DNA of 64,000 bases from Planctomycetota bacterium. GTDB lineage: Bacteria > Planctomycetota > PLA2. The stretch lies in the NCBI GenBank assembly GCA_021776735.1, contig JAJFFH010000037.1:1-64000 (forward strand), given 5' to 3'. This document shows, in pieces, positions 24,223 to 59,288 of this stretch (the first letter of the stretch is position 1; each line of letters starts with the position of its first letter). The notes below the pieces were generated by a model. That model saw only the letters and a program-made list of their open reading frames with translations, was not told where the DNA came from and did no database searches. The position numbers were made by a program, and so were the translations under genes.

Positions 24223-24662
24223 GTTTACCTTGCCACCCGGGCCCGCCGCCGTTCAAAAAAGGACGGAAACATCGCCGTCCGTTTGCTTTTTCCTCCTTGT
24301 TGCGTGCTTCCCAGCACCGTGCGTGGCGGAATGCCTGCGCAACCTCCGGCGCAGCGACGAAGCCGCCGCAGTCCGAGCCCGTTTCGACAGGCCTGGTCCT
24401 GTTCGGACACGGTGATGCCGGCTCCTGTTTCTGCAAGACCCGCTAGAAAAACGTCAAAAGAGAGGCGGGGCACACCCTGCCACTCCCCAGACTGAACGCT
24501 AAAACCATCCTCTTGATCCCGGCTCGGTAGGGCACGGCAGCCGCCCATCCGATCGACGGCGGGTCGTCAAAAAACACCGGCGTCATCGGGTCTCCGGTTT
24601 GCGCTGGGGGCATTGCCTGTACAGGATCTTCCTGTTGCGGGTGAGATTCCGCGTAATTCTCC
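24223..24662. other. 440-bp divergent intergenic region
   Basis: Lies between the divergent starts of the sigma fusion and hemN. It holds the motif copy at 24270 and a GGACGG/CCGTCC inverted repeat (24261-24266 with 24275-24280) flanked by A6 (24255-24260) and a T-rich run. I see no convincing gene, and no FNR-type TTGAT-N4-ATCAA box before hemN. Confidence 0.6.
24270..24282 (-). repeat. Dispersed motif copy (AGCAA subtype)
   Basis: Exact 13-mer on the minus strand in the leader of the sigma fusion, forming the right arm of a GGACGG/CCGTCC hairpin with T-rich flank. Followed by T. Confidence 0.9.
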
Positions 24663-38324: not shown

Positions 38325-39760
38325 GCGTTCGCCTCCTCCGTCTGCCCGTTCACAGTCGAGTCGGCGGCGCCGTCGCCCCCGCCCCCCCCTGACCCAACTT
38401 CTTGGGGCTTTTTCTGAGCCCACTGCGATACGCCCTTGATCTCGCCGATGGCGATGACGGGCAGGAACCGGCAGAACAGGAAGAACAGGGTGAAGAACAG
38501 ACCGAAGCTGCCGATCAGCGTCACCACTTCGATCAGGGTCGGCTTGTACGACGCCCACGATGACGGCAGGAAGTCTCGATGCAGCGAGGTGACGATGATC
38601 ACGAAGCGCTCGAACCACATGCCGACGTTTATCAGCAGGCTGAGGCCGAATACCAGGGCGAGGTTCTGGCGGATGCGCCCCGACCAAAACAGCTGCGGCA
38701 CGATCACGTTGCAGCTCACCATGATCCAGTACGCCCAGGCGAACGGCCCGAGCGCGCGGTTCATGAAGACGAACTGCTCGTACGGGTTGCCCGAGTACCA
38801 GGCGATGAAGAACTCGGTGGCGTACGCCAGGCCGACGATGCCGCCCATGCCGATGATCAGCTTGCACATCGAGCCGACGTGGCCCTTCGTGATGTAGTTC
38901 TCGAGGCGCATGACCTTGCGCGCGACGAGCATCAGGGTCAGCACCATCGACAGGCCCGAGAAGATCGCGCCCGCCACGAAGTACGGCGGGAAGATCGTCG
39001 TGTGCCACCCGGGGATCACCGACGTGGCGAAGTCGAAGCTGACGATGGTGTGCACGGAAAACACCAGCGGTGTCGCCAACCCCGCCAACAGCAGGTACAC
39101 GACCTCGTAGCGTTGCCACGTGCGTGCCGAGCCGTTCCAGCCCAGGCTCAGGAACGAGAACACCTTCTTCTTCAGGCCGCGGAACCGGTCGCGCAGGGTC
39201 GCGAAGTCGGGAATCAGGCCGACGTACCAAAACGTCGCCGAGATGATGAAGTAGGTCGAGATCGCGATCACGTCCCAAAACAGGGGCGAGCGCCAGTTGA
39301 TCCAGAGCGAGCCGCGCAGGTTCGGATACGGCATCGGCCAGAACGCCAGCCAGGGCCGGCCCATGTGGATCAGTGGGAAGAGCGCTGCGCACAACACCGC
39401 GAAGATCGTCATCGCCTCGGCGGAGCGGTTGACGGCGGTGCGCCAGCGCTGGCGAAACAAGAACAGCACCGCGCTGATGAGCGTGCCCGCGTGGCCGATG
39501 CCGACCCAGAACACGAAGTTCGTGATGTCGAACGCCCAGCCGACCGTGCGGTTGAGTCCCCACGTGCCGATGCCGGTCGAGATGGTGTACCCGATGGCGA
39601 GCATCCCGAGCAGGAGCGCGGTGCCGCTGATGCCGATGCCGAGGTACCAGAGCCGGGTCGGCTTGCCCTCGAGCGGTCGCGCAATGTCGGCCGTGATCTC
39701 GGCGTACGAGACGGGTCGAGCGGTCAGCGGTTCGCGCAGTTCCGAAACGGCATCAGACAT
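38321..39760 (-). CDS. actC: Alternative complex III subunit ActC (NrfD-type)
   Basis: 479 residues with about ten helices, of the NrfD/PsrC superfamily. Characteristic parts are WGLNRTVGWAFDITNFVFWV, GIGHAGTLISAVLFLFRQRW, SVHTIVSFDFATSVIPGWHT and YSGNPYEQFVFMNRALGPFA. It is the main quinol-binding membrane subunit of alternative complex III. The C-terminal tail is Gly-rich (SGGGGGDG) because of a C5-G-C8 run at 38376-38389. It overlaps actB by 8 bp. Confidence 0.88.
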   Translation of the reverse strand: MSDAVSELREPLTARPVSYAEITADIARPLEGKPTRLWYLGIGISGTALLLGMLAIGYTISTGIGTWGLNRTVGWAFDITNFVFWVGIGHAGTLISAVLFLFRQRWRTAVNRSAEAMTIFAVLCAALFPLIHMGRPWLAFWPMPYPNLRGSLWINWRSPLFWDVIAISTYFIISATFWYVGLIPDFATLRDRFRGLKKKVFSFLSLGWNGSARTWQRYEVVYLLLAGLATPLVFSVHTIVSFDFATSVIPGWHTTIFPPYFVAGAIFSGLSMVLTLMLVARKVMRLENYITKGHVGSMCKLIIGMGGIVGLAYATEFFIAWYSGNPYEQFVFMNRALGPFAWAYWIMVSCNVIVPQLFWSGRIRQNLALVFGLSLLINVGMWFERFVIIVTSLHRDFLPSSWASYKPTLIEVVTLIGSFGLFFTLFFLFCRFLPVIAIGEIKGVSQWAQKKPQEVGSGGGGGDGAADSTVNGQTEEANA

Positions 39761-42581: not shown

Positions 42582-43204
42582 TGGTGGCACGCTCCGCAGT
42601 CCAGGGTGGCCTTTTTCTTGCGGTGGCAGTCGACGCACGACCCCATGAGCAGCGTCGAGTGCTGCCGCATGCGCTCCATCGTCTCGACCGGCCCGTGGCA
42701 GTCCTGGCACGCCACGCTGGCTGTAATGTGCGAACGGTGGTCGAAGCGCACGAAATCCGGGACCTTGTGGACCTGCATCCACGCGATCGGATCGCGCTCG
42801 AGCTTCGGATCGCGCTCGCGCTTGTCGTTGAGTCCGAGCGCGCGATAGATTTTTCGAATCTCCGGCGACACGACGAGTTCGGGCTTGCGATTCGCCGCCT
42901 CGGCCTTCTTGGCTTCCGCCAGCACATCCGCCCGCGGAGCGGAAACCGACGTGTGGCAGTTCATGCAGATCCCGGCGGGCGGGATGCCCGCGTGCGGACT
43001 CTGCTCGGCGCCGACGTGGCAATACCGACAATCGATGCCCAGCTCGCCCGCGTGCAACCGGTGCGAGTACGCAATCGGCTGCGTCGGCGAGTAGCCCTGG
43101 TGGTTGCCGGGGACCCGCAGCGCGCTCAGCCGCGTTGCCAGCGAGACCAGCGCTAGCGCGAGGCCCACGAGCAGGGTAATGGTGCCGACCCGGGTGCGAT
43201 ACAT
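42578..43204 (-). CDS. actA: Alternative complex III pentaheme cytochrome c subunit ActA
   Basis: 208 residues from ATG 43204. An N-terminal helix (TITLLVGLALALVSLATRL) is followed by five CxxCH motifs (CRYCH, CMNCH, CQDCH, CVDCH, CGACH), matching the pentaheme ActA. The sequence QPIAYSHRLHAGELGIDCRY is typical for the class. It is a periplasmic membrane-attached subunit that takes electrons from ActB. Its start overlaps the upstream narK stop by one base, which ties complex III to the nitrate genes in a single transcript. Confidence 0.9.
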   Translation of the reverse strand: MYRTRVGTITLLVGLALALVSLATRLSALRVPGNHQGYSPTQPIAYSHRLHAGELGIDCRYCHVGAEQSPHAGIPPAGICMNCHTSVSAPRADVLAEAKKAEAANRKPELVVSPEIRKIYRALGLNDKRERDPKLERDPIAWMQVHKVPDFVRFDHRSHITASVACQDCHGPVETMERMRQHSTLLMGSCVDCHRKKKATLDCGACHQ

Positions 43205-44841
43205 CAGCAGGAGACCTCCGCGCCCTTTCTGGCGTAGAACCACCAGTTAACGACCAGGCAACTCCCGTAGTAGCCCGCGAACCCGTACAACGCGTACTCG
43301 GGATGGCCCGCCTTGAGCTGCGTGCCAAAGATCTTCGGGATCAGGAACGCGCCGTAGGCGGCGATCGCCGAGGTCCAGCCGAGCACCGGTCCAGCCTGTT
43401 CCTTCTCGAAGATGATCGGGATCATCCGAAACGTCGAGCCGTTGCCGATGCCGGTGGTCGCAAACAGCAGAATGAACAGCAAGAGGAACGGCATGAAGTA
43501 CTGCTCCGGGGTGGGCGATTGACTCGCCTGCGCCACGTAGTACCCCGCGCCTATCGTCGCGCCGATCATGATGAACGTATCCCACTGGGTGACGCGCGCG
43601 CCGCCCCACTTGTCGGCGAGCCAGCCGCCCACCGGACGGATCACGGCGCCGACCGCGGCGCCGATCCAGATGTAGTGGTCGGAGATCGGTCCGTTCGTGT
43701 TCTCCACGGCCTTGGCCAGCAGTTGGCCGTCTTTGTTGACGCGGATCACGCCGAACACGTCGTCGATCAGCTTGGGGAACGCGTTGGCGTACCCGATGAA
43801 CGACCCGAAGGTCATCGTGTACAGCCAGGTCATGATCCAGGTGTGCTTGTTCTTGAAGATGGCGAACTGCCCGTCGAGGTTCTCCTTGGTCGCCGCGGGC
43901 GTGACGTACTTCATCAGCGCCAGCGTCGTAACGACCGCAACGAGCACCGCGACAAACAGCTTCAGCAGGACCGGGAACCCACCCCAATCGATCAGCAGCA
44001 GGAAAATCGCCGCCGCGGCGCCAGCAAACCCGAGCAGCGTCAGCCACAGGAACTTGCCGAACGCACCGGCGGTCGTCCCGAACTTGTGCTGCGGCAGGTT
44101 GTTCATGAAGAACCAGCTCAGCACAAGCAGGACACCCAGGACCGGCACCCAGACGAGCGCCGCGTTCTGAATCCAGATCGAACGGTCGGGCGACCCCTCC
44201 TTGATCAGGGTGAGCGAGTCGCCGCCGATCGCTCCGAACATGCCGAAAGTGATGGCCCACGGGATCAGGAACTGCATCACGCTCACGCCGGCGTTGCCCA
44301 GGCCCGCGTTCAGGCCCAGCGACAGGCCCTGCATCCGCTTCGGGAAAAAGAAGCTGATGTTGGACATGGACGACGCGAACGCGCCGCCGCCGACCCCGGA
44401 AAGCGCGGCGAGCATCACGAACGTCAAGAACGACGTGTTCGGATCCTGCAGCGCGAACCCGGCGGCGATCGCCGGCAGGACGAGCAGCAGCGTCGTCATG
44501 AACTTGACGTTGCGTCCGCCGCAGAGCGCGATCATGAACGAGTTCGGAATACGCAGGGTTGCGCCCGCGAGACCCGCGACCGCCGGCAGGTTGTAGAGCA
44601 GCGCGCGGTACGCGTCGCCTTCGAGCGGCTTGCCGTTGTTCCCGAAGGTGAACGCGAACAGATCCGGGTTGCCTATATGCAGCGACTGCATGACCTTCGC
44701 GATCATGCCCCAGTACAGCCAGACCGCGAATCCGCACAAGAGGTTCGGAATCGAGATCCAGAGGTTTCGATTCGCGACCTTTTTTCCTGTCCCGTTCCAA
44801 AAGGCCGGATCCTCGACGTCCCAGTGCTTCGGGTCACTCAT
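43204..44841 (-). CDS. narK: NarK-type nitrate/nitrite transporter (second)
   Basis: 545 residues, a major facilitator with about 12 helices plus a longer loop. Nitrate-signature stretches are GVGGGAFASSMSNISFFFPK followed by RMQGLSLGLNAGLGNAGVS, and TGIGNGSTFRMIPIIF in the second half. Helix 1 reads NLWISIPNLLCGFAVWLYWG. The sequence is of the NarK2/nitrate-nitrite exchanger sort, which exports nitrite made by NarG. It starts inside the stop of the first narK gene (4-bp overlap) and is coupled to actA. Confidence 0.88.
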   Translation of the reverse strand: MSDPKHWDVEDPAFWNGTGKKVANRNLWISIPNLLCGFAVWLYWGMIAKVMQSLHIGNPDLFAFTFGNNGKPLEGDAYRALLYNLPAVAGLAGATLRIPNSFMIALCGGRNVKFMTTLLLVLPAIAAGFALQDPNTSFLTFVMLAALSGVGGGAFASSMSNISFFFPKRMQGLSLGLNAGLGNAGVSVMQFLIPWAITFGMFGAIGGDSLTLIKEGSPDRSIWIQNAALVWVPVLGVLLVLSWFFMNNLPQHKFGTTAGAFGKFLWLTLLGFAGAAAAIFLLLIDWGGFPVLLKLFVAVLVAVVTTLALMKYVTPAATKENLDGQFAIFKNKHTWIMTWLYTMTFGSFIGYANAFPKLIDDVFGVIRVNKDGQLLAKAVENTNGPISDHYIWIGAAVGAVIRPVGGWLADKWGGARVTQWDTFIMIGATIGAGYYVAQASQSPTPEQYFMPFLLLFILLFATTGIGNGSTFRMIPIIFEKEQAGPVLGWTSAIAAYGAFLIPKIFGTQLKAGHPEYALYGFAGYYGSCLVVNWWFYARKGAEVSC

Positions 44842-46487
44842 GACGATGCCCCCTCCCCCGAATCCCCAGACCCCCTCCCCCCGGCGCCCCCCTCCCCCAA
44901 CTTCGGATCGGACCCCACAGCCGGGGCTTCGATGTGATCCGCCAAGTGGGGGCTGTGCTCACGGGTCATGCGGCGCACGACGATGTGCATCCAGATCATG
45001 CAGATCGCGGTGATGCCGAAGAAAAACATCCAACACGTGGTCCAGATGCCGGTCGCTTTCAGCAGGTAGCCGAAGATCACCGGGCAGATGAACCCGCCGA
45101 GTCCGCCGAGGACGCCGACGATGCCGCCGACCACGCCGACGTCGTCGGGGAAGTAGTCGGGAATGTGCTTGTAGACGGCCGCCTTGCCGATGCCCATGAC
45201 GGCACCGAGGACCAGGCTCAGTATCGTGAAGATCCACACGTTGGCCTGGAAGAAGATGTGGGTGTGGCCCTTCGCGAGGAGCTGCTTCGGTTTGATCTGG
45301 TCGCCGGCCTCTACCGCGGGCTCGTGCCAGGACATGCCGCGCGGCCAGACCAGGACGCCGGTGCGGCGCTCCTCTTCGGTCGCGAGCTCGCCTTCTTTCT
45401 TCTTGAGCTTGTACGACCGCTCCTTGCCCGTCTTCGCAGCCGTCACGACGACCTTGTCTTCCGCGACCGACACCACCGTGCCCGGAGACTTGGCGATCAC
45501 GCCGCTGCCCGGCGCGAAGATGTCCATGCGCGGCACGATGAGCAGCGCGCACACGACGAGGCAGATGCCGAACACCCAGTACATGACGGAGCGTGCGCCG
45601 AACTTGTCCGACATCCAGCCGCCCGCCGCACGCACGACGCCTCCGGGCAGCGTGTTGAATGACGCAAGGAAGCCGGCCATCGCCACGGGCAGCGCGTAGA
45701 CGTTGACGTAGTACGGCACCAGCCAGCCGGCCAGGGCCACGAAGCCGCCGAAGACGAAGAAGTAGTACAGGCCGAAGCGCCACACGCGGACGTGCTTGAG
45801 CGGCTCGAGCCGCTGCTTCATCGTCTTGGTCGCGCCACCCGCGGGCCGCTTGTTTTCCGTCGCGAACCAGAACAGGATGCCGGTGACCAGCAGAGCCACC
45901 GCGTAGAACTTGGGCAGATGGCGCCAGCCCTCCATCGACGCGCCGTCGTCGGTCAGCATGCCGAGCAGCGTCGGCGCGCCGAGCAGGGTCAGCGCCGCGC
46001 CCGCGTTGCCCGCGCCGAAAATGCCCAGCGCGGTGCCCTGCAGGCGCTTGGGAAACCACACCGACGTGAACGCGATGCCTACCGCGAAGCTGGTTCCGGT
46101 CATGCCGAAGCCGAGCCCGGCGATCAGGAAGCCTGCGTAGCTGTCGCAGTAGCTCACCGCCCACATGGGGATGGCGCACAGGATCAGCAGGATCGTGTAG
46201 ACCGGCCGGCCGCCCCACTTGTCGGTCGCGATGCCGATGGGCAAGCGGAACAGGGCGCCGGTCAGAACCGGAATCCCGATCAGCCAGCCCAGTTGCCCCG
46301 CGTCCCAGTCGTACACCCCGTTGTTGATCAGGAACGTGATGAGGACCCCGTACATCGTCCACGCGGCAAAGCACACCGTGAACGCGAGGGTGTTCGCCGT
46401 GAGGACGGACCACGCCCCGCGCAGGACCGGTGCGCCGTCGTCCGGCTTACCGGAGTCCGCAGTGCCCGATTGGTTGGCCCCGGTCAT
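44838..46487 (-). CDS. narK: NarK-type nitrate transporter (first)
   Basis: 549 residues, a major facilitator with GLGFGMTGTSFAVGIAFTSV, WFPKRLQGTALGIFGAGNAG and GVVRAAGGWMSDKFGARSVM, the paired nitrate signatures. About 90 extra hydrophilic residues in the middle (VVSVAEDKVVVTAAKTGKER and following) form an inserted loop. The C-terminus is a Gly/Ser-rich tail caused by C runs at 44848-44900. It is of the NarK1 type that commonly pairs with the exchanger as a fused or adjacent gene. It begins three bases after narI. Confidence 0.88.
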   Translation of the reverse strand: MTGANQSGTADSGKPDDGAPVLRGAWSVLTANTLAFTVCFAAWTMYGVLITFLINNGVYDWDAGQLGWLIGIPVLTGALFRLPIGIATDKWGGRPVYTILLILCAIPMWAVSYCDSYAGFLIAGLGFGMTGTSFAVGIAFTSVWFPKRLQGTALGIFGAGNAGAALTLLGAPTLLGMLTDDGASMEGWRHLPKFYAVALLVTGILFWFATENKRPAGGATKTMKQRLEPLKHVRVWRFGLYYFFVFGGFVALAGWLVPYYVNVYALPVAMAGFLASFNTLPGGVVRAAGGWMSDKFGARSVMYWVFGICLVVCALLIVPRMDIFAPGSGVIAKSPGTVVSVAEDKVVVTAAKTGKERSYKLKKKEGELATEEERRTGVLVWPRGMSWHEPAVEAGDQIKPKQLLAKGHTHIFFQANVWIFTILSLVLGAVMGIGKAAVYKHIPDYFPDDVGVVGGIVGVLGGLGGFICPVIFGYLLKATGIWTTCWMFFFGITAICMIWMHIVVRRMTREHSPHLADHIEAPAVGSDPKLGEGGAGGRGSGDSGEGASS

Positions 46488-46490: not shown

Positions 46491-47225
46491 TCACCTCTGT
46501 TGTTGGTCTTGCGCCGAGCGTTTTCGATGCTCGACTCGACCCTGGTTGGTTCCGTACCAGCGCACGACCTGGGTTCTCCGCCACAGGTACATGTTGGGAA
46601 TCACGAGAATGTGGACGAGCCGCGTGAAGGGGAAGAACGCGACCAGCGCGAACGCGCCGAGGATGTGCGCCTTCACCAGCCACGGCATGGGCACGACCGC
46701 CGCAACGTCCGGGTTCAGCTTGACCAGCGACCACAGGTAGGGCGCCAGCGTCGAGGCGAACCACGACGAGCCCCAGCCGTAAAAGACGGCGACGCCCAGG
46801 CCGGTCGCGATCTGAACCAGCAGCATGACCGACAGGATCCAGTCGCTCGGCGTCGTCACCGCGCGGAGCCGGTTGTTCGATCCGCGCCGCAACACCAGTG
46901 ACACGAACCCGATCAGCGACAGGAGGCCGCCGATCAGCGCCGTGATCTCCAGGATGTAGAGACGGGCGGGATGGCTGTTCCACCACAGGATCGAGCGCGG
47001 CACCAGGAATGCCACGAAGTGCCCGAGGAGCACGAACAGGATGCCGTAGTGGAACGGGACGCTGCCCCAGAAGTGCTGGCGGTTCTCCAGGAACTGCGAG
47101 CTGAGGGTCGAGTACGTGTACGCCCGCTGGCGATAGCGCTGGATGGTCACGACCAGCAGCAGCACCATCGCGATGTAGGGAAAGGCTCCGTAGAGCAGGA
47201 AGTCCAGATGGTTAGCAGATCCCAC
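46491..47225 (-). CDS. narI: Respiratory nitrate reductase gamma subunit (cytochrome b)
   Basis: 244 residues from GTG 47225. Five membrane helices with His candidates for the two hemes b: FHYGILFVLLGHFVAFLVPR (helix 2) and WLVKAHILGAFALVAFFPFT followed by RLVHILVIP (helix 5). NarI oxidises membrane quinol and passes electrons to NarH. It overlaps narJ by 14 bp. Length and motifs are usual for the family. Confidence 0.9.
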   Translation of the reverse strand: MGSANHLDFLLYGAFPYIAMVLLLVVTIQRYRQRAYTYSTLSSQFLENRQHFWGSVPFHYGILFVLLGHFVAFLVPRSILWWNSHPARLYILEITALIGGLLSLIGFVSLVLRRGSNNRLRAVTTPSDWILSVMLLVQIATGLGVAVFYGWGSSWFASTLAPYLWSLVKLNPDVAAVVPMPWLVKAHILGAFALVAFFPFTRLVHILVIPNMYLWRRTQVVRWYGTNQGRVEHRKRSAQDQQQR

Positions 47226-47745
47226 TGCAGCCTCCGCAGTCGTACGGAGCGTTCGCCGTCGGCGCGCTCCACTCGATCGGCTCGCCGTACCGCCGGCGCA
47301 GGAACTGCTCGATATCTGCGAGCACCGCTCCGTAGGGGTTGTCGCCGTCTTCGAACCCGGCGCGCATCTTGAGCAGCGCCGGCAGGATGAACTCGCGTGC
47401 GAGGCCTGCCGCCTCGGACTCGTCCATGACCTCCAGCACGCGCAGCGCGCTTTCCAGGTGGTCGGGCAGTTCCGCGCCTTCCTCGATGCCGTGGGCGCGC
47501 AGCAGGCCGCGCATCCTCACGAGGAACGCTCCCCGGTTGTAGTCCTCGCCGAACAGGTGCCAACCGGTCTCGAGCGAGCACACGGGATTGATGTCGAACG
47601 TTCGCGTGTACAGCTCCTCGAGGTCGCCGTGCTCGATCGCGGCGAAGTCGGGAAACCGCCGCAGTGCCGCCCGGATCTCGGGCGTCGACGGATAACACAG
47701 CGCATCCGCGAAATCGCGATGCGTGCCGATCGCCGCGCCGCTCAT
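47212..47745 (-). CDS. narJ: Nitrate reductase assembly chaperone NarJ
   Basis: 177 residues, all-helical, TorD/NarJ family, with DFADALCYPSTPEIRAALRR, the marker YTRTFDINPVCSLETGWHLF, GEDYNRGAFLVRMRGLLRAH and ELPDHLESALRVLEVM. NarJ guides molybdenum cofactor insertion and membrane docking of NarGH and is not part of the final enzyme. It overlaps narH by 4 bp. The C-terminus ends in CGGCSGIC. Confidence 0.88.
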   Translation of the reverse strand: MSGAAIGTHRDFADALCYPSTPEIRAALRRFPDFAAIEHGDLEELYTRTFDINPVCSLETGWHLFGEDYNRGAFLVRMRGLLRAHGIEEGAELPDHLESALRVLEVMDESEAAGLAREFILPALLKMRAGFEDGDNPYGAVLADIEQFLRRRYGEPIEWSAPTANAPYDCGGCSGIC

Positions 47746-49232
47746 GATCCCCTCCGCGGTCCCGTCAGGAACCCGAATCCGGTCTCGCGCCGATGGTCGT
47801 CGGTGTCCTTCATCATCTCGATCGCCTCCTCCCGGTGCATGGGCGGAATCACAAAGCGGTCGTCGAACGTTGCGGTCGTCGAGAGCTTGAAAATCTCGTC
47901 TGCTTCTTCCGGCGTGCAGTCGGCCTCGCGCAGCGCCGCCTCCGCGGCCTCCTTCGTGATGTCGCCGACCGTGACCGCGCGGCGCCAGAGGCGCACGGCC
48001 ATCTGCTTGCGCAGCGCGTAGGACACCTTGCCGGTGTTGCCGCCCCCGAGCAGGTTGCCGAGGTACTCAAGCGGTGCGCGAGCCTGATCGAACGCGTGGA
48101 AGAGATCCTCGCTGACCGACTCGATCGTGTCGCCGTTGCGCTGGCTCATGACCGGCAGCAGCGGCGGCACGTAAAACAGCATCGGCAGCGTGCGGTACTC
48201 CACGTGCGGCGGCAGCGCGATCTTCCAGTCCTTGACGAACTTGTAGACCGGCGAGTTCTGCGCGGACTCGACAACCGAGTCGTGGATGCCGTTGGCCCGC
48301 GCCCCGGCGATGACCGCCGGATCGTGCGGGTCGAGGACCATGTCGCGGTGCGCGTCGATGAGTTCCTCGTCCTTGCGGCTGGCGACGTCCTCGATCTTGT
48401 CCGCGTCGTAGAGCAGCACGCCGAGATAGCGGATACGGCCGACGCACGAGTGGAAGCACGCCGGCGCCTGTCCGGTCTCGAGGCGCGGGAAGCACAGGAT
48501 GCACTTCTCCGACTTGCCCGCGTTCCAGTTGAAGTACGTCTTCTTGTAGGGGCACGCCGCGATGCACGAGCGCCAGGCGCGACAGACGTTCTGGTCGATC
48601 AGGACGATGCCGTCCTCGCCGCGCTTGTAGAGCGCCCCGGAGGGGCACGAAGCGACGCAGGACGGGTTGAGGCAATGGTTGCAGATGCGCGGCAGGTAGA
48701 AAAACACCAGCCGTTCGATGGCCATCATCTGCGACTGCTGCTCCGGCGTCAGCGACGCCATGTTCGGATCGTTTTTGGCGTAGATCTCCGAGCCGCCCAG
48801 GTCGTCGTCCCAGTTGGGCCCCGCCTCGATGTCGATCAGCTCGCCGGTGACCTTCGAGATCGGGACCGCCGTCGGCTGGTCGTCGCCCTCGGGGGCGTTG
48901 AACAGGTCCTCGTACCGGTACGTCCACGGCTCGTAGTAGTCGTCCATGCTGGGCTGGGACGGGTTGTGGAAGATGTTGGGCACGATGCGCGCCTTGCCGG
49001 TGGACTTGAGGCGCAGCTTGCCGTCGATGAGTTCCCACCCACCGCGGTACTCCTCCTGGTCCTCCCACTTCGTGGGATAGCCGGTGCCCGGCTTCGTCTC
49101 CACGTTGTTCCACCACATGTATTCCGTGCCCTTGCGGTCGGTCCACACGTTCTTGCAGGCGATGCTGCATGTATGACAGCCGATGCACTTGTCGAGGTGA
49201 AACACCATCGAGACTTGCGAGCGAACGTCCAT
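47742..49232 (-). CDS. narH: Respiratory nitrate reductase beta subunit (iron-sulfur)
   Basis: 496 residues. Four cysteine groups: CIGCHTCSIACKNVW, CNHCLNPSCVASCPSGALY, CRAWRSCIAACPYKK (with the Trp that marks the [3Fe-4S] site of NarH) and CILCFPRLETGQAPACFHSC. It carries electrons from NarI to NarG at the cytoplasmic membrane face. Full length. Its start lies ten bases after the narG stop. Confidence 0.93.
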   Translation of the reverse strand: MDVRSQVSMVFHLDKCIGCHTCSIACKNVWTDRKGTEYMWWNNVETKPGTGYPTKWEDQEEYRGGWELIDGKLRLKSTGKARIVPNIFHNPSQPSMDDYYEPWTYRYEDLFNAPEGDDQPTAVPISKVTGELIDIEAGPNWDDDLGGSEIYAKNDPNMASLTPEQQSQMMAIERLVFFYLPRICNHCLNPSCVASCPSGALYKRGEDGIVLIDQNVCRAWRSCIAACPYKKTYFNWNAGKSEKCILCFPRLETGQAPACFHSCVGRIRYLGVLLYDADKIEDVASRKDEELIDAHRDMVLDPHDPAVIAGARANGIHDSVVESAQNSPVYKFVKDWKIALPPHVEYRTLPMLFYVPPLLPVMSQRNGDTIESVSEDLFHAFDQARAPLEYLGNLLGGGNTGKVSYALRKQMAVRLWRRAVTVGDITKEAAEAALREADCTPEEADEIFKLSTTATFDDRFVIPPMHREEAIEMMKDTDDHRRETGFGFLTGPRRGS

Positions 49233-49242: not shown

Positions 49243-52200
49243 TTACCAGTCGAGACGGGGCAGCTTGCGCACGTACACGTGCGTGTCGCGGTTGCAGCCG
49301 GTCGGGCCCCAGTAATTGAAGTGGTAGGTGAACTGCGCGTAGCCGCCGACCATCAGGTTCGGCTTCAGGCGCGTGCGCGTCAGGCTGTTGTGACCGCCGG
49401 CGCGCCGGTTCTTGCGAAGCGGCGAACGCGGGACGCCGTAGGTGCGCTCGGTGGAGTGGTAGAGGATGCCGATGCCGCGCGGAATGCGCGCGGACACCGC
49501 TGCCCGCGTCACCGCGACGCCGTGGTCGTTGTGCACCTCGACCCAGTCGTTGTCGACGATCCCGATCTGCTCGGCATCCTTGACGTTCATCCAAAACGGA
49601 TCGCAGCCGCGCGACAGCGTCGACATGCGCTCGTTGTCGCCGTACGTCGAGTGGATGTGCCATTTGCCGTGCGGCGTCAGGTAGTTCAACATCACCGTCG
49701 GCCCCTCTTCGGTACTCACGACGAGGTCGGCGTACTCGGTGGGCTTCGGCTTGGGCTTGTACGTCGGCAGATGCTCGCCGAACTCGAGGTAGCCGGGGTG
49801 ATCGAGGTACAGGTGCTGGCGGCCCGTCAGCGTGCGCCACGGCACCAGCAGCTCCTTTTGAAACGTGAAGGGAGCGTACGGACGGCCGTTCTCGGTCAGG
49901 CCCGACCACATCGGACTGTTGAGGAGACGGCGCGGCCGGCCCTGCAGGTCGTCGAAGTCGCAGCGCTGGCTCCGGGACTTCTCGGCGACGTGCGCGAGCT
50001 TGAGGCCGGTCTTGACCTCGAGATCGAGGTAGGACCGGTGCGACAGCTCGCCGTTCGTGACCGTCGCCAGGTGCAGGATCGTGTTGCAGACCTGCACGTC
50101 GTCTTTCAGCGACGGATAGATCGTGTCGTCAAGCTCCTCGACCGGCCACGTGGCGACCATCTCGTCGTAGAAGTCCTCGCAGTTGTAGTGCGTGCCGTGC
50201 GCGCCCAGTCCGCCTTCGCGAACGTTCGGGCCCAGCGAGATGAACTGCTTGTAGACGTCCTTGTAGTTGCGCTTGATGACCTTCAGATTGGGCATGGTCT
50301 TGCCCGGGATCGGTTCGACCGTGCCGTCGATCCAATCCTCGATGGCCGGCTGCGCGATCTCCGCCGGCGAGTCGTGTGACAGCGCCGCCGCGATAAGGTC
50401 GTCGACGGGCTCCGGGAAGTGGCGCTCCGCGAGCTCCGAGAACTTCTTCGAGATCTCGCGGAAAATCTGCCAGTCGCTCTTGCTTTCCCAGCACGGGGGA
50501 ACAGCCGGCGTCAACGGATGGATGAAGCTGTGCATGTCCGTCGAGTTGAGATCCGCCTTCTCGTACCAGGTGGCGGCCGGCAGGACGATGTCGGAGTAGA
50601 GCGCCGACGTATCCATGCGGAAGTTCAGGTCGACGACGAGATCCAGCTTGCCGGTCGGTGCAACCTCGTGCCACTTGACTTCCTTGACGTGCTCCTTGGC
50701 AAGAGGCTCGGCGATTTCGTTGTGGTGCGTGCCGAGATAGTGCTTGAGAAAGTACTCGTGGCCCTTGGCCGAGGACTGCAGCGCGTTGCCGCGCCAGATG
50801 TACCAGACCCGCGGCCAGTTCTCAGGCGCGTCGGGATCTTCGACGGAGAACTTCAGGTCGCGCGACTTCAGCCGGTCGACGACGCGCTTCACGACCTCGG
50901 CGTCGTCCTTCGCGCCATGCTCTCTCGCTTCCTTGACGACGTCGATCGGATTCTCGGAGAACTGCGGGTAAAACGGCAGCCATCCGTTGCGCACCGCGCG
51001 CACCTGCGTGTCCATGGTGTGGCCGCGCGCGAGCCCACTGCCCTCGTCGCCGCGCTCGGGCACGGCGTGATAATCGGTGAACTCGCGCTCGTAGCGCCAC
51101 TGGTCGCTGTGCACATAGTGCCAGCTCGGCGCGTTCTGCAGGCGCGCGCCCGGATACCAGTCCTTGCCAAGCGCGATCGCCGACCACGGCTCCATCGGCG
51201 CCAGTTTTTCCTGGCCGACATAGTGCGCGAGACCGCCGCCGTTGGTGCCCACGCAGCCGCAAAAAACGAGCGCGTGGATGCCGGCGCGATACATCAGGTT
51301 GGCGTGGTACCAGTGGTTGATCCCGGCGCCGATGATGATCGTGCAACGACCCTCGGTCTTCTCCGCGGTCACGCCCCACTCGCGGGCGAAGCGAAGAAGC
51401 TCCTTGCGGCTGATGCCGGTGAAGCGCTCGGACCACGCGGGGGTATACGGCGCATCCTCGTCGTCGTAGTTCTCCGGATAGCCCTTCAGACCGCGAGGAA
51501 CGCCGTATTGGGCCATGAGCAGGTCGTAGACCGTCGCGACCGTGACAGTCTTGCCGTCCGCGGTTTCGATCCGGCGGACCGGCACCTCGCGAGTGACCGT
51601 GCGCCCCTCGGCGAAGTCGTCGAGCAAGACCATCGCGACGCCGTCGCCGCCGTTCAGGAACGTGAGCGCGGGATCGATCTTCGAGCCGTCGGCGCCGTCC
51701 TCGAGCTTTAGGTTCCACTGGCCCTTTTGATCCTGCCAGCGGTGGCCGGACGAGCCCATGGGCATCTTCGGGCGCTGGTCACCCTCGTCCCACATGAGGA
51801 ACTTCCACTCGCCGTTCTGCTCGCCCTCGTACGCCTTCAGGCGACCGGCGCGCAGCAACTGGCCCGGCGACAAGACATCGCCGTCCGTCTGCTTACTTCC
51901 GGTGGACTCCGCAAGTTCCACGAGGAACGGGCTGTCGGTGAAGCGCTTGGAATAGTCGAGGAAGTACGGCGTCTGCTTTTCGTGGTGGAACTCCTTGAGC
52001 AGCACGTGGTTGACGGCCATCCACCAGGCGCCGTCCTGGCCCGCGTTGACCGGGACCCAGGTGTCGGCGTACTTCGAGACCTGGCTGAAGTCGGGGGAGA
52101 AGACCCACATCTTCGTGCCGTTCGTGCGCGCCTCGGCGGCGAAGTGCACGTCCGGCGTGCGGGTCATGTTGAGGTTGCTCCCCATGACCGCGAGCAGCTT

Positions 52201-52911
52201 GGCGTTGTACCAATCCGCGCTCTCGTTCACGTCGGTCTGCTCGCCCCACGTCTCCGGGGACGCGTTAGGCAGATCGCAGTACCAGTCGTAGAACGACAGC
52301 GAAACGCCACCCATGAGTTGCAACATGCGCGAGCCGGCGGCGTAGCTGATCATGGACATCGCCGGGATCGGGCTGAAGCCCGTCAGGCGGTCGGGCCCGT
52401 GCTTCTTGATGGTGTGGACGTTCGCCGCCGCCATCAGCTCGAGCACGGTGTCCCAGTCGGTGCGCCGCAGGCCACCCTTGCCGCGGGCGCGCTGCCAGCG
52501 GCTGCGTTTCTCGTCGTCACCGACGAGTGCGGCCCAGGCGTCGACCGGATCCTCGTGGTTGGCCCGCGCCTGTTTCCACAGGTCGAGCAACGCGCCGCGG
52601 ATGTAGGGATACTTCACCCGCAGCGGGCTGTAGAGGTACCAGGAGAACGAAATGCCGCGCTGACAGCCCCGCGGTTCGTACGGCGGGATGCCGTCCTCGA
52701 GGGGCGGGTAGTCGAGCCCCTGCATCTCCCACGTGACGATCCCGTCCTTGACGTAGATCTGCCAGGTGCAACTGCCGGTGCAGTTCACGCCGTGGGTGGA
52801 GCGCACGACCTTGTCGTGCTGCCACCGGTTGCGATAGAACTCCTCCCAGCCGCGGGAGCGCGCGCTGACTTCGTCCCCGATCCACGGACGGTCGCCGTTG
52901 CCGCTCATCAT
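49243..52911 (-). CDS. narG: Respiratory nitrate reductase alpha subunit
   Basis: 1222 residues from ATG 52911 (GGGAGGAGC upstream), overlapping the cytochrome stop; ATG 52908 is equally possible. There is no Tat signal, so it is cytoplasmic like classical NarG. The [4Fe-4S] FS0 site is in [20 protein letters not shown] with the His ligand, and [12 protein letters not shown]-type and [20 protein letters not shown] segments mark the bis-MGD domain. It reduces nitrate to nitrite. Relative to E. coli NarG from memory, seven residues (SKQTDGD) are added between LAESTG and [10 protein letters not shown], and these are exactly the motif copy at 51876. Confidence 0.93.
51876..51888 (-). repeat. Dispersed motif copy (AGCAG subtype)
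   Basis: Exact 13-mer on the coding (minus) strand of narG, read as Q-T-D-G-D. It coincides with an apparent seven-residue (21-bp) insertion relative to NarG homologues. Confidence 0.92.
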
Positions 52912-53804
52912 GCTCCTCCCTTGCGCACGTTCTCGACGAGCGCCTTGCGGACACTGCGAAAGCGCCCGCTCCACACGTTGTTGAAGGCGACCAGGGCGCC
53001 CATGGTTCCCGCGAGCCCGAGCAGGATGAACACCAGCGCGCGCGGCGCCGTGTCCTCTTCCGATTCCGCCGCGGCGTGGCGGAAGTACGCCACGAGCCCG
53101 AGGATTTCGTCGTCCGAGATCGGGTGATCCTTGAAGGTGGGCAGCATCGTCTCGGTCGCCGGGGCAGTGAGCCACGCCGCGAGGCGCCGGCGGTCCTTGT
53201 AGCGCTCGAAAACCTTGGTCAGGTCCGGCCCGAGCCGCCCGCCACCGAGCCAGCCGATGTCTCCCATCGCGTGACACGAGACACACGAGGGGCCGCCGTT
53301 CTCCAGCCGCGTCGTGCCCAAAAAGACCGCGCGTCCGTGCTCGACGTCGTCGTCGGTCAGCGGCCGATCCGACACCGTCGAACCGGCGAATTTCGAACGC
53401 TCCTTCGCCGACTCGGCCTCGATCAGGTCAAGCAGCGCGTCGGCGCGATCCCCGGTCATGCCGGCAACCGGCGGCATCTGCACGCCACCAGCCGCAGCCA
53501 GCAGCTCCTTGGCGTACGGATCACCGCTCGCGAGGACCCCGGCCGGATCAAGAATGAACCGGCGCAGCCACGCGCGGTCCTTCCGCTTGGCGACGTTCTT
53601 CAAGTCGGGGCCGGTCAGCGGCCCGCCACCAATGGTGTGGCAGCTGGAACAACTCTGCTTGAAGTCGTCCGCGGGAGTTTGAGCCGCAACCCGTCCCGCC
53701 GCAACGGCGAGAAACAGGGCGGCCAACAGCGCACAGCAGCGCGTGGTGCGACGGGTCCTGGGCACATCTGGCCTCCGGAAAAACGGCATCCGTACCGCCG
53801 CCAT
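52908..53804 (-). CDS. Membrane-anchored diheme cytochrome c, first gene of the nar-act operon
   Basis: About 298 residues if started at ATG 53804; 53789 is also possible. A signal or anchor ([20 protein letters not shown]) precedes two cytochrome c domains with CSSCH and CVSCH motifs, and a C-terminal helix ([19 protein letters not shown]) anchors it with a short cytoplasmic basic tail. Possible Met ligands are in VQMPPVAGM and [16 protein letters not shown]. Diheme cytochromes of this kind precede nar genes in some bacteria (NarC-like). It could accept electrons from complex III or feed another acceptor. It is coupled to narG by ATGA. Confidence 0.75.
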
Positions 53805-53935
53805 GAAAACGCCGTGCCGCGCCAAAAGACGCGCTCCCATAGCGGTTTTTATCGCCGGACTGGATCCGCCGCTATGCAGGCGGATGCATACACGGGTATT
53901 CAGGTGTCACGGAGGAATGACGCTCGAAAAAGCGA

Positions 53936-53948
53936 ACGGACGGCGATG
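53936..53948 (+). repeat. Dispersed motif copy (AGCGA subtype)
   Basis: Exact 13-mer in the leader of the nar-act operon, at about the predicted transcription start of the sigma-54 promoter. Followed by T. Confidence 0.88.
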
Positions 53949-53956: not shown

Positions 53957-53971
53957 GCAAAGCCCGTACCT
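53957..53971 (-). promoter_or_regulatory. Sigma-54 (-24/-12) promoter of the nar-act operon
   Basis: Minus strand AGGTACG-GGCT-TTGC (53971 to 53957) matches TGGCACG-N4-TTGC with GG and GC exactly ten bases apart. Transcription would begin near 53945, about 140 bp before the cytochrome ATG. The 443-bp region 53805-54247 otherwise holds a motif copy and the palindrome at 54088, and no supported gene. Confidence 0.65.
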
Positions 53972-54087
53972 CCGAGTCCCGGTGCCGCCGAGCCCTTTGA
54001 TGGGGACGATGGCCGACTGCATCTCGTCCATCTGGACTACAAGGACGACCAGCGGTCCTGAGACGGCACTTGACGGCGACGCCCAAA

Positions 54088-54107
54088 ACTTATAACTTTT
54101 TATAAGT
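54088..54107. promoter_or_regulatory. Perfect 8+8 bp inverted repeat, likely activator site
   Basis: ACTTATAA-CTTT-TTATAAGT, strongly AT-rich in GC-rich DNA, lies about 140 bp upstream of the predicted sigma-54 transcription start and 140 bp after the response-regulator stop. This is the usual place of an enhancer-type binding site for an NtrC-family activator. It could also act as a weak terminator for the regulator gene. Confidence 0.55.
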
Positions 54108-54247: not shown

Positions 54248-55666
54248 CTAGCTCCGGCGGAACTGTTCTCTGGTCAGGCCCTGGGCGCGCATGATGCGTT
54301 GGACGGCGGCTCGCGTCAGGCCGCAACTTCGGGCTGCGGCCGAGACGTTGCCGTCTGAGTCGTCGAGCGCGCGTTCCAGGAATCGCCGTTGAAACGCGTC
54401 GACGACGCGGCGCTTGCCTTCCTCGTACGAGACGGATGGGTCCACGATCGGGCGGCTCCAACGTGCGTTCTCTTCGAGGCCCAAGTGTTCGGGGCAGATC
54501 GGCTTTCCGCCACTCAGCACCAGCGCGCGGTGGATGCAGTTTTCGAGTTCGCGCACGTTGCCCGGCCATGCGTGCGTGTCGAGCGCGGAGAGCCCCGATT
54601 CCGACAAGACACCGGGACGCGCGACCTCCGCGGCATACTTTTTTAGAAAGTGCGCGGCCAGCGGTCGGATATCGCGAGGGCGGTCGCGCAGGTTCGGCAC
54701 TTCGAGCGTGAACACCTGCAAGCGGTAGTACAAGTCCTCGTGGAACGTGCCTTGGGCCATCAGTTCCTTGAGGTCGCGGCTGGTCGCGGAGACAAGGCGA
54801 AAATCGACGGGCTTGGGGTCGATCGAGCCCAGGGGTACGACCACGCGCTCTTGCAATACGCGCAACAGCTTGCCCTGAAAGCCGAGCGACATCAGGCCGA
54901 TTTCGTCCAGGAACACCGTGCCACCCTGGGCCTGTTCGAAGATTCCCTGGCGCGCGCGATCGGCGCCGGTGAATGCGCCCTTCTCGTGGCCGAACAGTTC
55001 CGCTTCAAGGAGCGCGTCCGGAAGGGCTGCGGTGTTGACCGCCAAGAACGGCTTGCTCGCGTTCTTGCTGCGGTCGTGGATGGTTCGGGCGATCAGTTCC
55101 TTTCCGACGCCGCTGGCGCCCTGGATGAGCACACTCATGGTCGTAGGTGCGACCTGGTCGAGACGCGCGAGGACGGCGCGCATCGCGGGATCCTCGGCGA
55201 TGAACGCGCGGTCCGCAGACATCGCCGTCCGTTTGCTATCCATGCGCAGCGCCCGCTCGGCCAAGACCGCCTCGGTGCCGAATCGTCGGATCGCGGCGAG
55301 CAGGTCCTCGTTGTCGAACGGCTTCGTGACGAAGTGCGATGCGCCGAGTCCCATCGCGGTGACGGCCAGTTCGATCGTGCCGAAGCCGGTGACCAGGATG
55401 ACGCGGGTGTCAGGGAGGCAGGCGCGCAGCTCGCGCAACAGGTCGATGCCGCTCATGCGACCCATCGTGATATCGCTGACGACGACATGGGGACGCCACT
55501 CCCGCGCGGTTTCGAGCGCCTGTTCGCCGTTGGCTGCCGCCTGGACCGATGCGCCTACGGATTCGCTCAGCATACGGAGACCCAGACGCACGTCGGGCTC
55601 GTCATCGACCACGAGCACGCGCAGCCCGCCGGGCCTCCAGACCGCGTCCGTCATCTTGCTGTTCAT
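54248..55666 (-). CDS. NtrC-family sigma-54 response regulator
   Basis: 472 residues. Receiver domain with phospho-acceptor Asp65 (VVSDITM) and KPFDNEDL. AAA+ domain with Walker A GASGVGKE, the sigma-54 contact loop ELFGHEKGAFTGA, and Walker B GTVFLDEIG. A C-terminal Fis-type helix-turn-helix (DGNVSAAARSCGLTRAAVQR). A motif copy encodes SKRTAMSA in the linker between receiver and AAA+ domains. It follows the kinase gene by 15 bp. The neighbouring sigma-54 promoter and palindrome make the nar-act operon its probable target. Confidence 0.9.
   Translation of the reverse strand: MNSKMTDAVWRPGGLRVLVVDDEPDVRLGLRMLSESVGASVQAAANGEQALETAREWRPHVVVSDITMGRMSGIDLLRELRACLPDTRVILVTGFGTIELAVTAMGLGASHFVTKPFDNEDLLAAIRRFGTEAVLAERALRMDSKRTAMSADRAFIAEDPAMRAVLARLDQVAPTTMSVLIQGASGVGKELIARTIHDRSKNASKPFLAVNTAALPDALLEAELFGHEKGAFTGADRARQGIFEQAQGGTVFLDEIGLMSLGFQGKLLRVLQERVVVPLGSIDPKPVDFRLVSATSRDLKELMAQGTFHEDLYYRLQVFTLEVPNLRDRPRDIRPLAAHFLKKYAAEVARPGVLSESGLSALDTHAWPGNVRELENCIHRALVLSGGKPICPEHLGLEENARWSRPIVDPSVSYEEGKRRVVDAFQRRFLERALDDSDGNVSAAARSCGLTRAAVQRIMRAQGLTREQFRRS
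55220..55232 (-). repeat. Dispersed motif copy (AGCAA subtype)
   Basis: Exact 13-mer on the coding (minus) strand of the response regulator, read as R-T-A-M in the interdomain linker. Followed by T. Confidence 0.92.
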
Positions 55667-55681: not shown

Positions 55682-57829
55682 TCAATCACGCGCCGATTCC
55701 ACGGGATCGGGCGCAGTGTTCTTGTCCGGCAGGAGAATCGCGAAGGTCGTGCCTCCGGCGCCGGTGGCGACGATCTCCAGACTTCCGGCATGGGCCGCGA
55801 TGATACGGCGCGATGTCGAGAGACCCAGTCCCGTACCGACCCCCGGCGCTTTCGTCGTAAAGAACGGCTCGAAAACGCGGTCCCGCTCGTCGGCCGGAAT
55901 GCCGGTCCCCGTGTCTTCGACCTCGATCCTGAACCCGCGCTCGTCTCTCCGGGCGCGGACCGCGACCCAGCCGCCGTCCTCCATCGCGTGCACAGCGTTC
56001 ATGACCAGGTTGATCAGCACCTGCCGGAGTTGCAGTTCGTCGCCGACCACGTCGCCGACGTCTTCCGCGCAATCAACGTCGAACGCAATGCCCGCGCGTT
56101 CCCAGATGGGGCGCAGAAAACGGCGCACGTCCTCGATCAGATCGCGGAGATCAAAGTCGGCGGTGTCCGGCGGCCCCTGCCCGGCCGTGTCCAGCAGACC
56201 GCGGATCGTGCGCCGGCACGTCTCGACGTTGCGCCGGATGACCTCTGCGCTCTCGCGCGCCGCGTTCCGGGCCGCCTCGTCGGACAAGCCGCGACCGGCG
56301 CCGCCGGCGCCCCCGCCCCCCCCTTCCCCTGCATCAAGCTGGCTCTCCAGCATCTGCGCGAACATTGCGATCGCGGCCAACGGATTGTTGAGCTCGTGCG
56401 CCATGACGGCGGAGATGTTGCCGAGCACGTTCATGCGCTCCTGATGCGCCTGCACCTTCGCCTGCGCCACGCGCTCGGTGATGTCACGACTCACGCACAG
56501 GCGCCCCGGCGACTCGCCGTCCGCTCCCGGGAGTTCGGTGACGTGGACTTCGAAGACGCGGCCGTCCGCCTTGATCGTGCAGGCGCCGCGCGGCAGCACG
56601 GCCTCGCGCAGGCAATTGACACAACCCGCGGCGTCGGGCGCCGCGCAGCCGGCACGCACCGCGACCGACGCGTCGTCCAGCAACTCGACGAGCGGCTGCG
56701 CGGCCTCGTTCGCAAACGTCACCGAACCGTTGCCGTCCAACGCGAGCAGGCCGTCGCGCATCGAACTCAGCACGGCATCCAGGCGGTCGCGCTCCAGGCG
56801 GATCGACGCCTCGCGCCGCTTCAACGCTTCCGTGCGCTCCTCGATAGCGTTGGCCATGATGTCGAACGCGCGCGAAAGATCGCCGATCTCGTCCTTCGAC
56901 GAATAGCCCACTCGCACCGAAAAATCGCCCCCGGCAAGGCGGCGCGCGGCCTCCCGAATGCGCGACAGCGGCGCGAGCAGAAAACGTACGGGGAAAAACA
57001 AGACCAGCGCGGTCAAGCCCAGGAGCACGGCCGCGGTCGCGAGAAACCTGTTGCGCAGACGCGCGGCGGGCGCCGTGACGGCCGCGCGATCGACCTCGAC
57101 GATCAGGTTCCAACCGGTCTCGGGAATCGTACTGCGATACGCGATCGCGTCGGCCGGGGACTGATCGCCGGCAAGCTGCAGACGCGCCCCGCGCCCCGAC
57201 TGCACCGCCACGACCGCGCCATCGGCAGCGGGCAACCCCCGCAGCTCGTTCATGCCCCCCACCCATGTGTCCGCCCGAATCTGCAGGACCAACGTCCCGA
57301 TACGGCGCTTGCCGGACAGATCGCGCAACGGCGTCGCAACCGCGAAGCTGGGGTAGTCGCGGGAACCGCCGGGCTCAAGCAGCGCCGTGAACGACGTCTC
57401 CGAAACCGATCGGCCTTCCGCCCCCCCGTACGCATCGCAGATACGCCGCCCCGCCATGTCCAGGACCGCAGCATCGACAAACGCAGCCACGAGGGGCAGC
57501 TTGCTGGCAACAAGATGCTCCCGTAGCTGACGGACGGCGATGCTTTCGGGCGTCGCCCCCTCAGCGGCGATCGCTTCCGCCGAAGTGCGAATGAAACCGT
57601 CGGACGCAAAGTCCTCGGCGCGGCGGGCGACGAGGTCCAGGTGATGCCGCACGATCATCCGCGTCGCGGCCGCGCGCTCGTCCAGACGGCTGCGGATCTG
57701 GCGGACCAGCGCCTCTTGTGCCGTGGACGTCACGACGAATCCGCCGACGCCGAAGGCGACGAGGCAGATACTGACGAACGTCAACGGCAGCTTGAACTTG
57801 ATGGGAACCCAAAAGAGGGGATCCCGCAT
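55682..57829 (-). CDS. Membrane sensor histidine kinase (Cache-HAMP-PAS-HisKA-HATPase)
   Basis: 715 residues from ATG 57829 with GGAGG ten bases upstream. Two membrane helices (FVSICLVAFGVGGFVV and the one at FLATAAVLLGLTALVLF) flank a periplasmic sensing domain of about 260 residues. HAMP, then a PAS domain with a Cys group (GCAAPDAAGCVNC) that could sense redox or metal. HisKA phospho-acceptor in NISAVMAHELNNPLAAI. ATPase domain with QVLINLVMNAVHAM and VEDTGTGIP and GVGTGLGLSTS. A Gly-rich insert (EGGGGGAGGAG) arises from a C5-G-C8 run. It is the partner of the following regulator, and divergent from tetR. Confidence 0.9.
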   Translation of the reverse strand: MRDPLFWVPIKFKLPLTFVSICLVAFGVGGFVVTSTAQEALVRQIRSRLDERAAATRMIVRHHLDLVARRAEDFASDGFIRTSAEAIAAEGATPESIAVRQLREHLVASKLPLVAAFVDAAVLDMAGRRICDAYGGAEGRSVSETSFTALLEPGGSRDYPSFAVATPLRDLSGKRRIGTLVLQIRADTWVGGMNELRGLPAADGAVVAVQSGRGARLQLAGDQSPADAIAYRSTIPETGWNLIVEVDRAAVTAPAARLRNRFLATAAVLLGLTALVLFFPVRFLLAPLSRIREAARRLAGGDFSVRVGYSSKDEIGDLSRAFDIMANAIEERTEALKRREASIRLERDRLDAVLSSMRDGLLALDGNGSVTFANEAAQPLVELLDDASVAVRAGCAAPDAAGCVNCLREAVLPRGACTIKADGRVFEVHVTELPGADGESPGRLCVSRDITERVAQAKVQAHQERMNVLGNISAVMAHELNNPLAAIAMFAQMLESQLDAGEGGGGGAGGAGRGLSDEAARNAARESAEVIRRNVETCRRTIRGLLDTAGQGPPDTADFDLRDLIEDVRRFLRPIWERAGIAFDVDCAEDVGDVVGDELQLRQVLINLVMNAVHAMEDGGWVAVRARRDERGFRIEVEDTGTGIPADERDRVFEPFFTTKAPGVGTGLGLSTSRRIIAAHAGSLEIVATGAGGTTFAILLPDKNTAPDPVESARD
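57530..57542 (+). repeat. Dispersed motif copy (AGCTG subtype)
   Basis: Exact 13-mer antisense to the kinase gene, read as S-I-A-V-R-Q in the periplasmic sensing domain. Followed by C. Confidence 0.88.
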
Positions 57830-57864
57830 GGTCTTGAACCTCCGAGGGGGGCGCGCATCATATC

Positions 57865-57892
57865 TTGCCCTAAGTAAGTAAGCGATTACTAT
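57865..57892 (+). promoter_or_regulatory. Divergent promoter with TetR-type operator
   Basis: TTGCCC (57865-57870), 16 bp, TACTAT (57887-57892), so transcription starts about at the GTG 57899 (leaderless). Overlapping it is AGTAA-GCGA-TTACT (57877-57890), a form common in TetR operators, with additional AAGTAAGT to its left. The 69-bp gap to the kinase start suggests that TetR controls both genes. Confidence 0.5.
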
Positions 57893-57898
57893 CTTCAC

Positions 57899-58516
57899 GT
57901 GCCCCCGCAGAAACGCGTCCCGACAGCCCATCGGCGGCCGCAGATCGCGAATACCACCCTCCGGCTCGTCGGCAAACACGGGTTGGTCGCGCTGACCATG
58001 GCGAAACTCGCGGCGGAGATCGGCGTGACAACGGGCGCGCTGTTCCGGCACTTCGCGTCGCGGGACGAGATTCTCGAGACGGCGGTGACAAACGCGGTCG
58101 CTCGCCTCGAACTCACGTTTCCCGAACCGGGCCTGCCGCCGCTCGAAAGACTGTTCGCCCTGGCGCGCGCACGCGTTCGCTTAGTCGGCAGCGACCCCGG
58201 TCTCGCATGGCTGCTGTTGTCGGAAGAGGCGCGCCTCGCGTTGCCGTCCGCGGCAGTCCAACAGCTCAGCGCGTTGGTCCGGCGATCACGCCGGTTCATC
58301 CTCGCGGCATTGCGCGAAGGCGCCGACAACGGCGAAGTCCGCGCCGACATCGAACCGGAAACCCTGCTGCTGCCGGTCGTCGGAACGCTCCATGTGTTGA
58401 TTCGCGCCCCGGGCGTGCACCGCCGCGCGTTTCCCCGCAAGCAAAAGCCGGAAGTGGTGCTTGCCGCCCTGCGGAAGCTGTTGACGCCCCCGCCCCCAAA
58501 AAAACACAACGCCTGA
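57899..58516 (+). CDS. TetR-family transcriptional repressor
   Basis: 205 residues from GTG 57899. The N-terminal helix-turn-helix (ANTTLRLVGKHGLVALTMAK, LAAEIGVTTGALFRHFASRD) is the TetR signature; the C-terminal part is a helical ligand-binding domain. It precedes ric by 20 bp and is divergent from the kinase gene. It probably represses itself and ric, in the place occupied by NsrR or NorR elsewhere. Ligand unknown. A C5-G-C5 run followed by A7 at 58487-58504 encodes TPPPPKK at the C-terminus. Confidence 0.85.
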   Translation: MPPQKRVPTAHRRPQIANTTLRLVGKHGLVALTMAKLAAEIGVTTGALFRHFASRDEILETAVTNAVARLELTFPEPGLPPLERLFALARARVRLVGSDPGLAWLLLSEEARLALPSAAVQQLSALVRRSRRFILAALREGADNGEVRADIEPETLLLPVVGTLHVLIRAPGVHRRAFPRKQKPEVVLAALRKLLTPPPPKKHNA

Positions 58517-59217: not shown

Positions 59218-59234
59218 GTGAATCCGAGTCAGCA

Positions 59235-59262
59235 AACGGACGGCGATGCATCGCCGTCCGTT
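59235..59262. repeat. Perfect 28-bp palindrome formed by two head-to-head motif copies
   Basis: Left arm AACGGACGGCGATG (59235-59248), right arm its exact reverse complement (59249-59262). The left copy has the AGCAA flank and the right copy the ACAGGA flank, so each keeps its own subtype. It lies 17 bases after the ric stop and 26 before the cytochrome ATG, followed by a T-rich run. It can form a terminator-like stem. Confidence 0.92.
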
Positions 59263-59288
59263 CCTGTCTGTTGTTGTCCGTCTTCGCC

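Follow-up and report, generated by a model that had tools for sequence, protein, structure and literature searches.

A nitrate reductase operon in a planctomycete very probably under a dedicated sigma-54 two-component system, its promoter and enhancer sites predicted from conservation

What is known about how nitrate respiration is controlled comes mostly from Proteobacteria and concerns NarXL, FNR and their relatives; we here asked how a nar cluster is controlled in a member of the Planctomycetota. The window, meaning the whole stretch of 64,000 nucleotides that was analysed, belongs to a draft genome of 5.97 Mb in 71 contigs. An initial annotation had proposed that its nar cluster is controlled by a dedicated sigma-54 two-component system, using a -24/-12 promoter together with a distant palindrome. 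The genes of the cluster, in their minus-strand order, are as follows.

55682..58051, minus strand: sensor histidine kinase with HAMP, PAS, HisKA and HATPase domains (Pfam; start codon uncertain)
54248..55666, minus strand: response regulator of the NtrC type, comprising a receiver, a sigma-54 AAA+ domain that carries GAFTGA, and a candidate Fis-type helix-turn-helix (Pfam; orthologue alignment)
52908..53765, minus strand: cytochrome c, encoded first in the operon (Pfam Cytochrom_C; start codon revised to GTG at 53765)
49243..52911, minus strand: narG, nitrate reductase alpha subunit (adjoins the cytochrome gene in relatives too, 68–79% identity)
47742..49232, minus strand: narH (gene order)
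47212..47745, minus strand: narJ (gene order)
46491..47225, minus strand: narI (Pfam Nitrate_red_gam)
43204..46487, minus strand: two narK-type transporters (Pfam MFS_1)
38321..43243, minus strand: c7-type cytochrome, ActB-like molybdopterin/Fe-S protein and NrfD-like protein, the ‘act’ part of the initial annotation (Pfam)

The genes for an NtrC-type activator and its kinase, which had been described as adjoining the palindrome, are real as judged by Pfam. The regulator matched Response_reg as well as Sigma54_activat, and its GAFTGA loop was found intact in the orthologue alignment. Its C-terminal Fis-type helix-turn-helix matched HTH_8 with an E value of 5e-4 and 20.1 bits, which is just below the Pfam cut-off of 22, and the same region is strongly conserved across the orthologues. 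The genome carries one rpoN gene (Sigma54_DBD, 206 bits). The regulators encoded near the operon are NtrC-type and TetR-type, and none of them belongs to the LuxR or Crp class. The revised GTG start of the cytochrome c gene has a good ribosome binding site ahead of it and opens a plausible signal peptide. Beside the nar cluster, on the plus strand, we also noted a protein that from its sequence resembles the RIC/YtfE-type iron-sulphur repair proteins (58537–59217) and a multihaem cytochrome c (59106–60980), for both of which roles in nitrosative stress or respiration are plausible.

Using the regulator as query against 392 genomes of the phylum gave a close match in 30 genomes. The kinase–regulator pair adjoined a cytochrome c gene, or lay within about 11 kb of it, in 19 genomes plus this one, the relatives being mostly drafts and not mutually independent, with narG and the genes that follow counted only as far as each contig reaches. 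At several other loci the contig ends before the nar region, and at L142, L155 and L156 a regulator orthologue is present with the nar genes not in reach. A profile search of genome contigs with the regulator alignment gave matches of about 35–45% identity in other phyla, which are probably paralogues and were set aside. A more distant regulator, 43–44% identical, was found at two loci (L163 and L164) near molybdopterin enzymes that are 23–25% identical to NarG, and related kinase–regulator pairs may therefore serve other respiratory enzymes.

Footprinting of the stretch upstream of the cytochrome gene in 20 loci, including this one, led to the predicted control sites listed here together with the two elements of the initial annotation and a copy of an iterated motif.

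53772..53776, minus strand: ribosome binding site GGAGG upstream of the GTG start at 53765 (sequence)
53804..53819, minus strand: predicted sigma-54 promoter CGGCACG-GCGT-TTTCA (position and sequence conserved ahead of the cytochrome gene in 19 relatives)
53861..53878, minus strand: predicted enhancer site 2, TGCAT-AGCGGCGG-ATCCA (centred 50 bp ahead of the -24 element and 24 bp from site 1)
53885..53902, minus strand: predicted enhancer site 1, TGAATAC-CCGT-GTATGCA (centred 74 bp ahead of the -24 element)
53927..53947, minus strand: iterated-motif copy, ATCGCCGTCCGTTCGCTTTTT (motif search)
53957..53971, minus strand: -24/-12 candidate of the initial annotation, probably not a promoter (three mismatches, rank 78; no counterpart in relatives)
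54088..54107, no strand assigned: palindrome of the initial annotation, which probably forms an RNA hairpin past the regulator gene (folding; non-conservation)

The predicted promoter sits 54 nt before the GTG codon, with a predicted transcription start at about 53793, and in the loci with a readable start the corresponding distance was 27–54 nt in all but one, where it was 74 nt. Its -24 element is one base off consensus and its spacing is right; by consensus it is nevertheless a weak candidate, because the -12 element reads TTTC rather than TTGC. At the conserved position, the best promoter match reached a mean of 9.4 out of 11, versus 6.7 in shuffled sequences, a comparison that controls in part for the relatives' promoters having been picked near the start codon. 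No second sigma-54 site was found 100–260 nt further upstream in the relatives (6.9 versus 7.1 when shuffled), which is where a counterpart of the originally proposed promoter would be expected.

The footprinting also revealed an inverted repeat, TGCAT-N8-ATGCA, which recurs 40–185 bp upstream of the promoter in the relatives' loci. As many as 16 of the 20 regions reached at least eight of ten matches, against a mean of 1.7 and a maximum of six in shuffles, and the signal was limited to a spacer of eight, other spacer lengths not behaving in this way. Four relatives (L151, L159, L162 and L166) have no repeat at that threshold, and a second copy lies 66–69 bp from the first in 11 loci. Enhancer site 1 matches an extended consensus, TGCATAC-N4-GTATGCA, at 13 of 14 positions, which none of 2000 shuffles did; enhancer site 2 matches the shorter repeat at nine of ten positions, and two sites in one region were likewise seen in none of 2000 shuffles. 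Searching all 5.97 Mb with the 14-position consensus gave one site within two mismatches, being the nar site, which makes the regulator appear dedicated. In the four genomes searched whole, exact copies of the 10-position repeat number 0 to 2 per genome. One of the copies in G013, and one of those in G374, is the nar site, whereas the only exact copy of the present genome lies elsewhere because its nar copy differs at one position. The simplest reading of these sequence counts is that the regulator has few targets, perhaps one. In some loci the regulator gene is 2.4–11 kb off while promoter and repeat remain beside the cytochrome gene, and the elements therefore belong to the nar operon.

Also conserved in several relatives is another inverted repeat, TAAGY-N15-RCTTA, whose centre lies 40–60 bp upstream of the -24 element. 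At least eight of ten matches were reached in nine of the 20 regions (L143, L144, L150, L152, L153, L154, L157, L165 and others), with a mean of 0.55 and a maximum of three in shuffles, and the repeat is absent from the window. This conservation suggests that at least one additional factor acts on the nar promoter in relatives.

Dedicated sigma-54 two-component control, the core of what had been proposed, gained support from the conserved gene order, promoter and enhancer, the GAFTGA activator and the one rpoN gene. As far as sequence comparison can tell, the nar cluster is very probably under its own dedicated sigma-54 regulator pair, in an arrangement common to 19 other genomes of the phylum. 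The sequence shows the gene order, the conserved motifs and how rare they are in the genome, the motifs of the activator and an rpoN gene; the scheme proposed on this footing adds predictions as to binding, phosphorylation, the transcription start, the signal and where the operon ends. The kinase would sense a respiratory signal and phosphorylate the regulator, which would then bind the two repeats, centred about 74 and 50 bp ahead of the -24 element, and from this enhancer pair activate RpoN polymerase on the promoter at 53804–53819. The transcript from near 53793 would cover cytochrome c, narGHJI and narK, and possibly the act-like genes as well. We hold the whole scheme, from kinase to nar operon, to be likely, and with somewhat less assurance we think it probable that nar in many members of the phylum is run by such a system with a private enhancer, replacing control of the NarXL or FNR type, with a second factor acting at TAAGY-N15-RCTTA in part of the group.

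The two cis elements originally chosen found no such support. AGGTACG-GGCT-TTGC was found on the minus strand from 53971 to 53957, where it had been placed, as was ACTTATAA-CTTT-TTATAAGT at 54088–54107, with eight perfect pairs around a 4-base spacer, and in the original proposal the former was the promoter, with the regulator bound to the latter about 130 bp upstream. A generic consensus weighting does put that -24/-12 slightly higher than the site at 53819, 12.0 versus 11.0, and the palindrome is AT-rich and single-copy, no further copies with up to three mismatches having been found in the genome. The -24/-12 can, however, hardly be called excellent, with three mismatches to TGGCACGNNNNTTGCW and 77 sites in the window that are equal or better, and a matrix built from the relatives prefers the site at 53819, which ranks 11th of 127,956 positions in the window while the original candidate ranks 78th. 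Starting from that candidate would also give a leader of about 180 nt, where those of the relatives are short. Neither element has a counterpart among the 19 relatives, the best palindrome matches there covering 6–12 of 16 positions. Their distances to the likely start codon are 206 and about 330 nt, and both belong to about 300 bp of sequence, between the regulator stop and the enhancer, that is missing from relatives; the distal enhancer copy of G013 and of G012 starts roughly 20–50 bp past the regulator stop. This extra stretch holds the -24/-12, the palindrome and one iterated-motif copy, and the conserved control sites are found about 150 to 200 bases away, downstream of both elements. 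We thus regard the original pair of sites as very improbable, and the case as a warning against -24/-12 elements and palindromes picked by eye. The idea that the -24/-12 is instead a decayed distal enhancer, suggested by its distance to enhancer site 1 (about 68 bp), was given up because no more than five of ten positions match. Also improbable is that TGCAT-N8-ATGCA is bound by another factor, such as an FNR-like protein or another repressor or activator, with the NtrC-type regulator acting elsewhere. Its assignment to the regulator comes from sequence comparison, and TAAGY-N15-RCTTA points to at least one more factor at the promoter in relatives. What speaks for the regulator is that the repeat lies upstream of a sigma-54 promoter, is doubled at fixed spacing and has the dyad size of an enhancer, besides sitting by the regulator's own gene cluster and being nearly unique per genome.

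There remained the palindrome, whose perfect repeat is real although its lack of a counterpart in relatives argues against an activator site. Perfect 8-bp arms with loops of 3–8 numbered 16 in the window against 11–38 in 12 shuffles, which is the level of chance, and it is the AT-richness of its arms alone, in a genome of 67% GC, that stands out, matched in none of the 12 shuffles. This AT-richness might suit a site for an unrelated regulator, or the operator of a small gene on the plus strand that starts at 54126, either of which we consider unlikely. Against such roles stand the lack of conservation, the failure to find a sigma-70-type promoter near the palindrome (the terminator and sigma-70 promoter scans of the region gave nothing useful) and the folding. 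The minus-strand RNA was predicted to form a hairpin of 14 pairs at -14.1 kcal/mol (z -3.66), using G-U pairs that are impossible on the plus strand, for which z was -1.78. With the minus-strand fold by far the more stable, the palindrome is on this modelling more likely to be a hairpin at the 3′ terminus of the kinase–regulator transcript, though not a standard terminator, than a site for the regulator. No Rfam match was found within the window. The palindrome was also considered as a displaced TAAGY-N15-RCTTA and rejected, the half-sites being in opposite order and the distances differing (15 versus 20 bp).

How does the proposed system compare with known ones? NtrB/NtrC and other NtrC-family systems combine receiver, sigma-54 AAA+ domain and Fis-type helix-turn-helix, the domain order also predicted for the regulator in the window, with inverted-repeat enhancers upstream of -24/-12 promoters, as also predicted here. 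NtrB/NtrC target nitrogen assimilation, whereas the target in the window would be nitrate respiration, through the private enhancer TGCAT-N8-ATGCA. The spread of NtrC-family response regulators is covered elsewhere (PMC12316311). A close parallel is AoxS/AoxR, which together with RpoN controls the arsenite oxidase operon of Herminiimonas arsenicoxydans and is likewise a neighbouring two-component pair whose NtrC-type regulator bears GAFTGA, the genes of a respiratory molybdenum enzyme being preceded by a sigma-54 promoter (PMC2848651). Enzyme, substrate and phylum differ, and for AoxS/AoxR transcription and mutants were studied (PMC2848651), whereas the enhancer sequence in the window is defined by conservation. 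A comparative survey of nitrogen-oxide regulators covers FNR-like factors, NarXL/NarQP, NorR and NsrR (PMC1274295). Among these NorR, being sigma-54-dependent, resembles the regulator of the window as a sigma-54 activator in nitrogen-oxide metabolism (nitric oxide detoxification). The survey does not describe control of nitrate reductase by NorR; the regulator in the window has a receiver of the phosphorylated type and a partner kinase. NarXL/NarQP and FNR-like control have the same nar targets, and NarXL is also two-component, but the class of regulator and the sigma factor differ (PMC1274295). The nar operons of Geobacter metallireducens also begin with a cytochrome c (diheme) followed by nar, with two narK beside one operon, and the part of PMC2700814 that deals with them describes no dedicated sigma-54 pair. 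We found none for a respiratory nar operon in the open-access literature, which is weak evidence. If the scheme is true, nar in another phylum has been placed under an ATP-driven, enhancer-dependent activator, as arsenite oxidase has in some bacteria, and the window offers exact sites for it: a promoter, an enhancer pair, one regulator and apparently one target.

A separate observation concerns the iterated motif ATCGCCGTCCGTNNGC, of which the genome has 1158 copies (587 and 571 by strand), with one for a reversed-pattern control and 0–2 in any one of 391 further genomes from the phylum. The motif mostly has AC before it and T-rich sequence, often TTTTT, after it. In the window it is found at 53927–53947 (minus strand) and 24271–24291 (plus strand), plus 13 further copies of the core. 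Within 464 kb, the 12-base core had 117 exact copies versus only 45 with one mismatch, the strands were about even, and some copies formed close inverted pairs; in 400 kb about half of the copies were intergenic, although a rough gene call makes about 90% of that sequence coding. In these respects the motif is reminiscent of DNA uptake sequences as found in Neisseriaceae and Pasteurellaceae. We found no uptake sequence reported from Planctomycetes in the literature, which is weak evidence, and the ComEC-type gene present in the genome belongs to a widespread family and proves nothing for uptake. Elsewhere in the window, 21055–24222 on the minus strand encodes a protein of 1055 residues in which sigma-70 regions 2 and 4 (ECF-like) are fused with several carboxypeptidase-regulatory-like domains.
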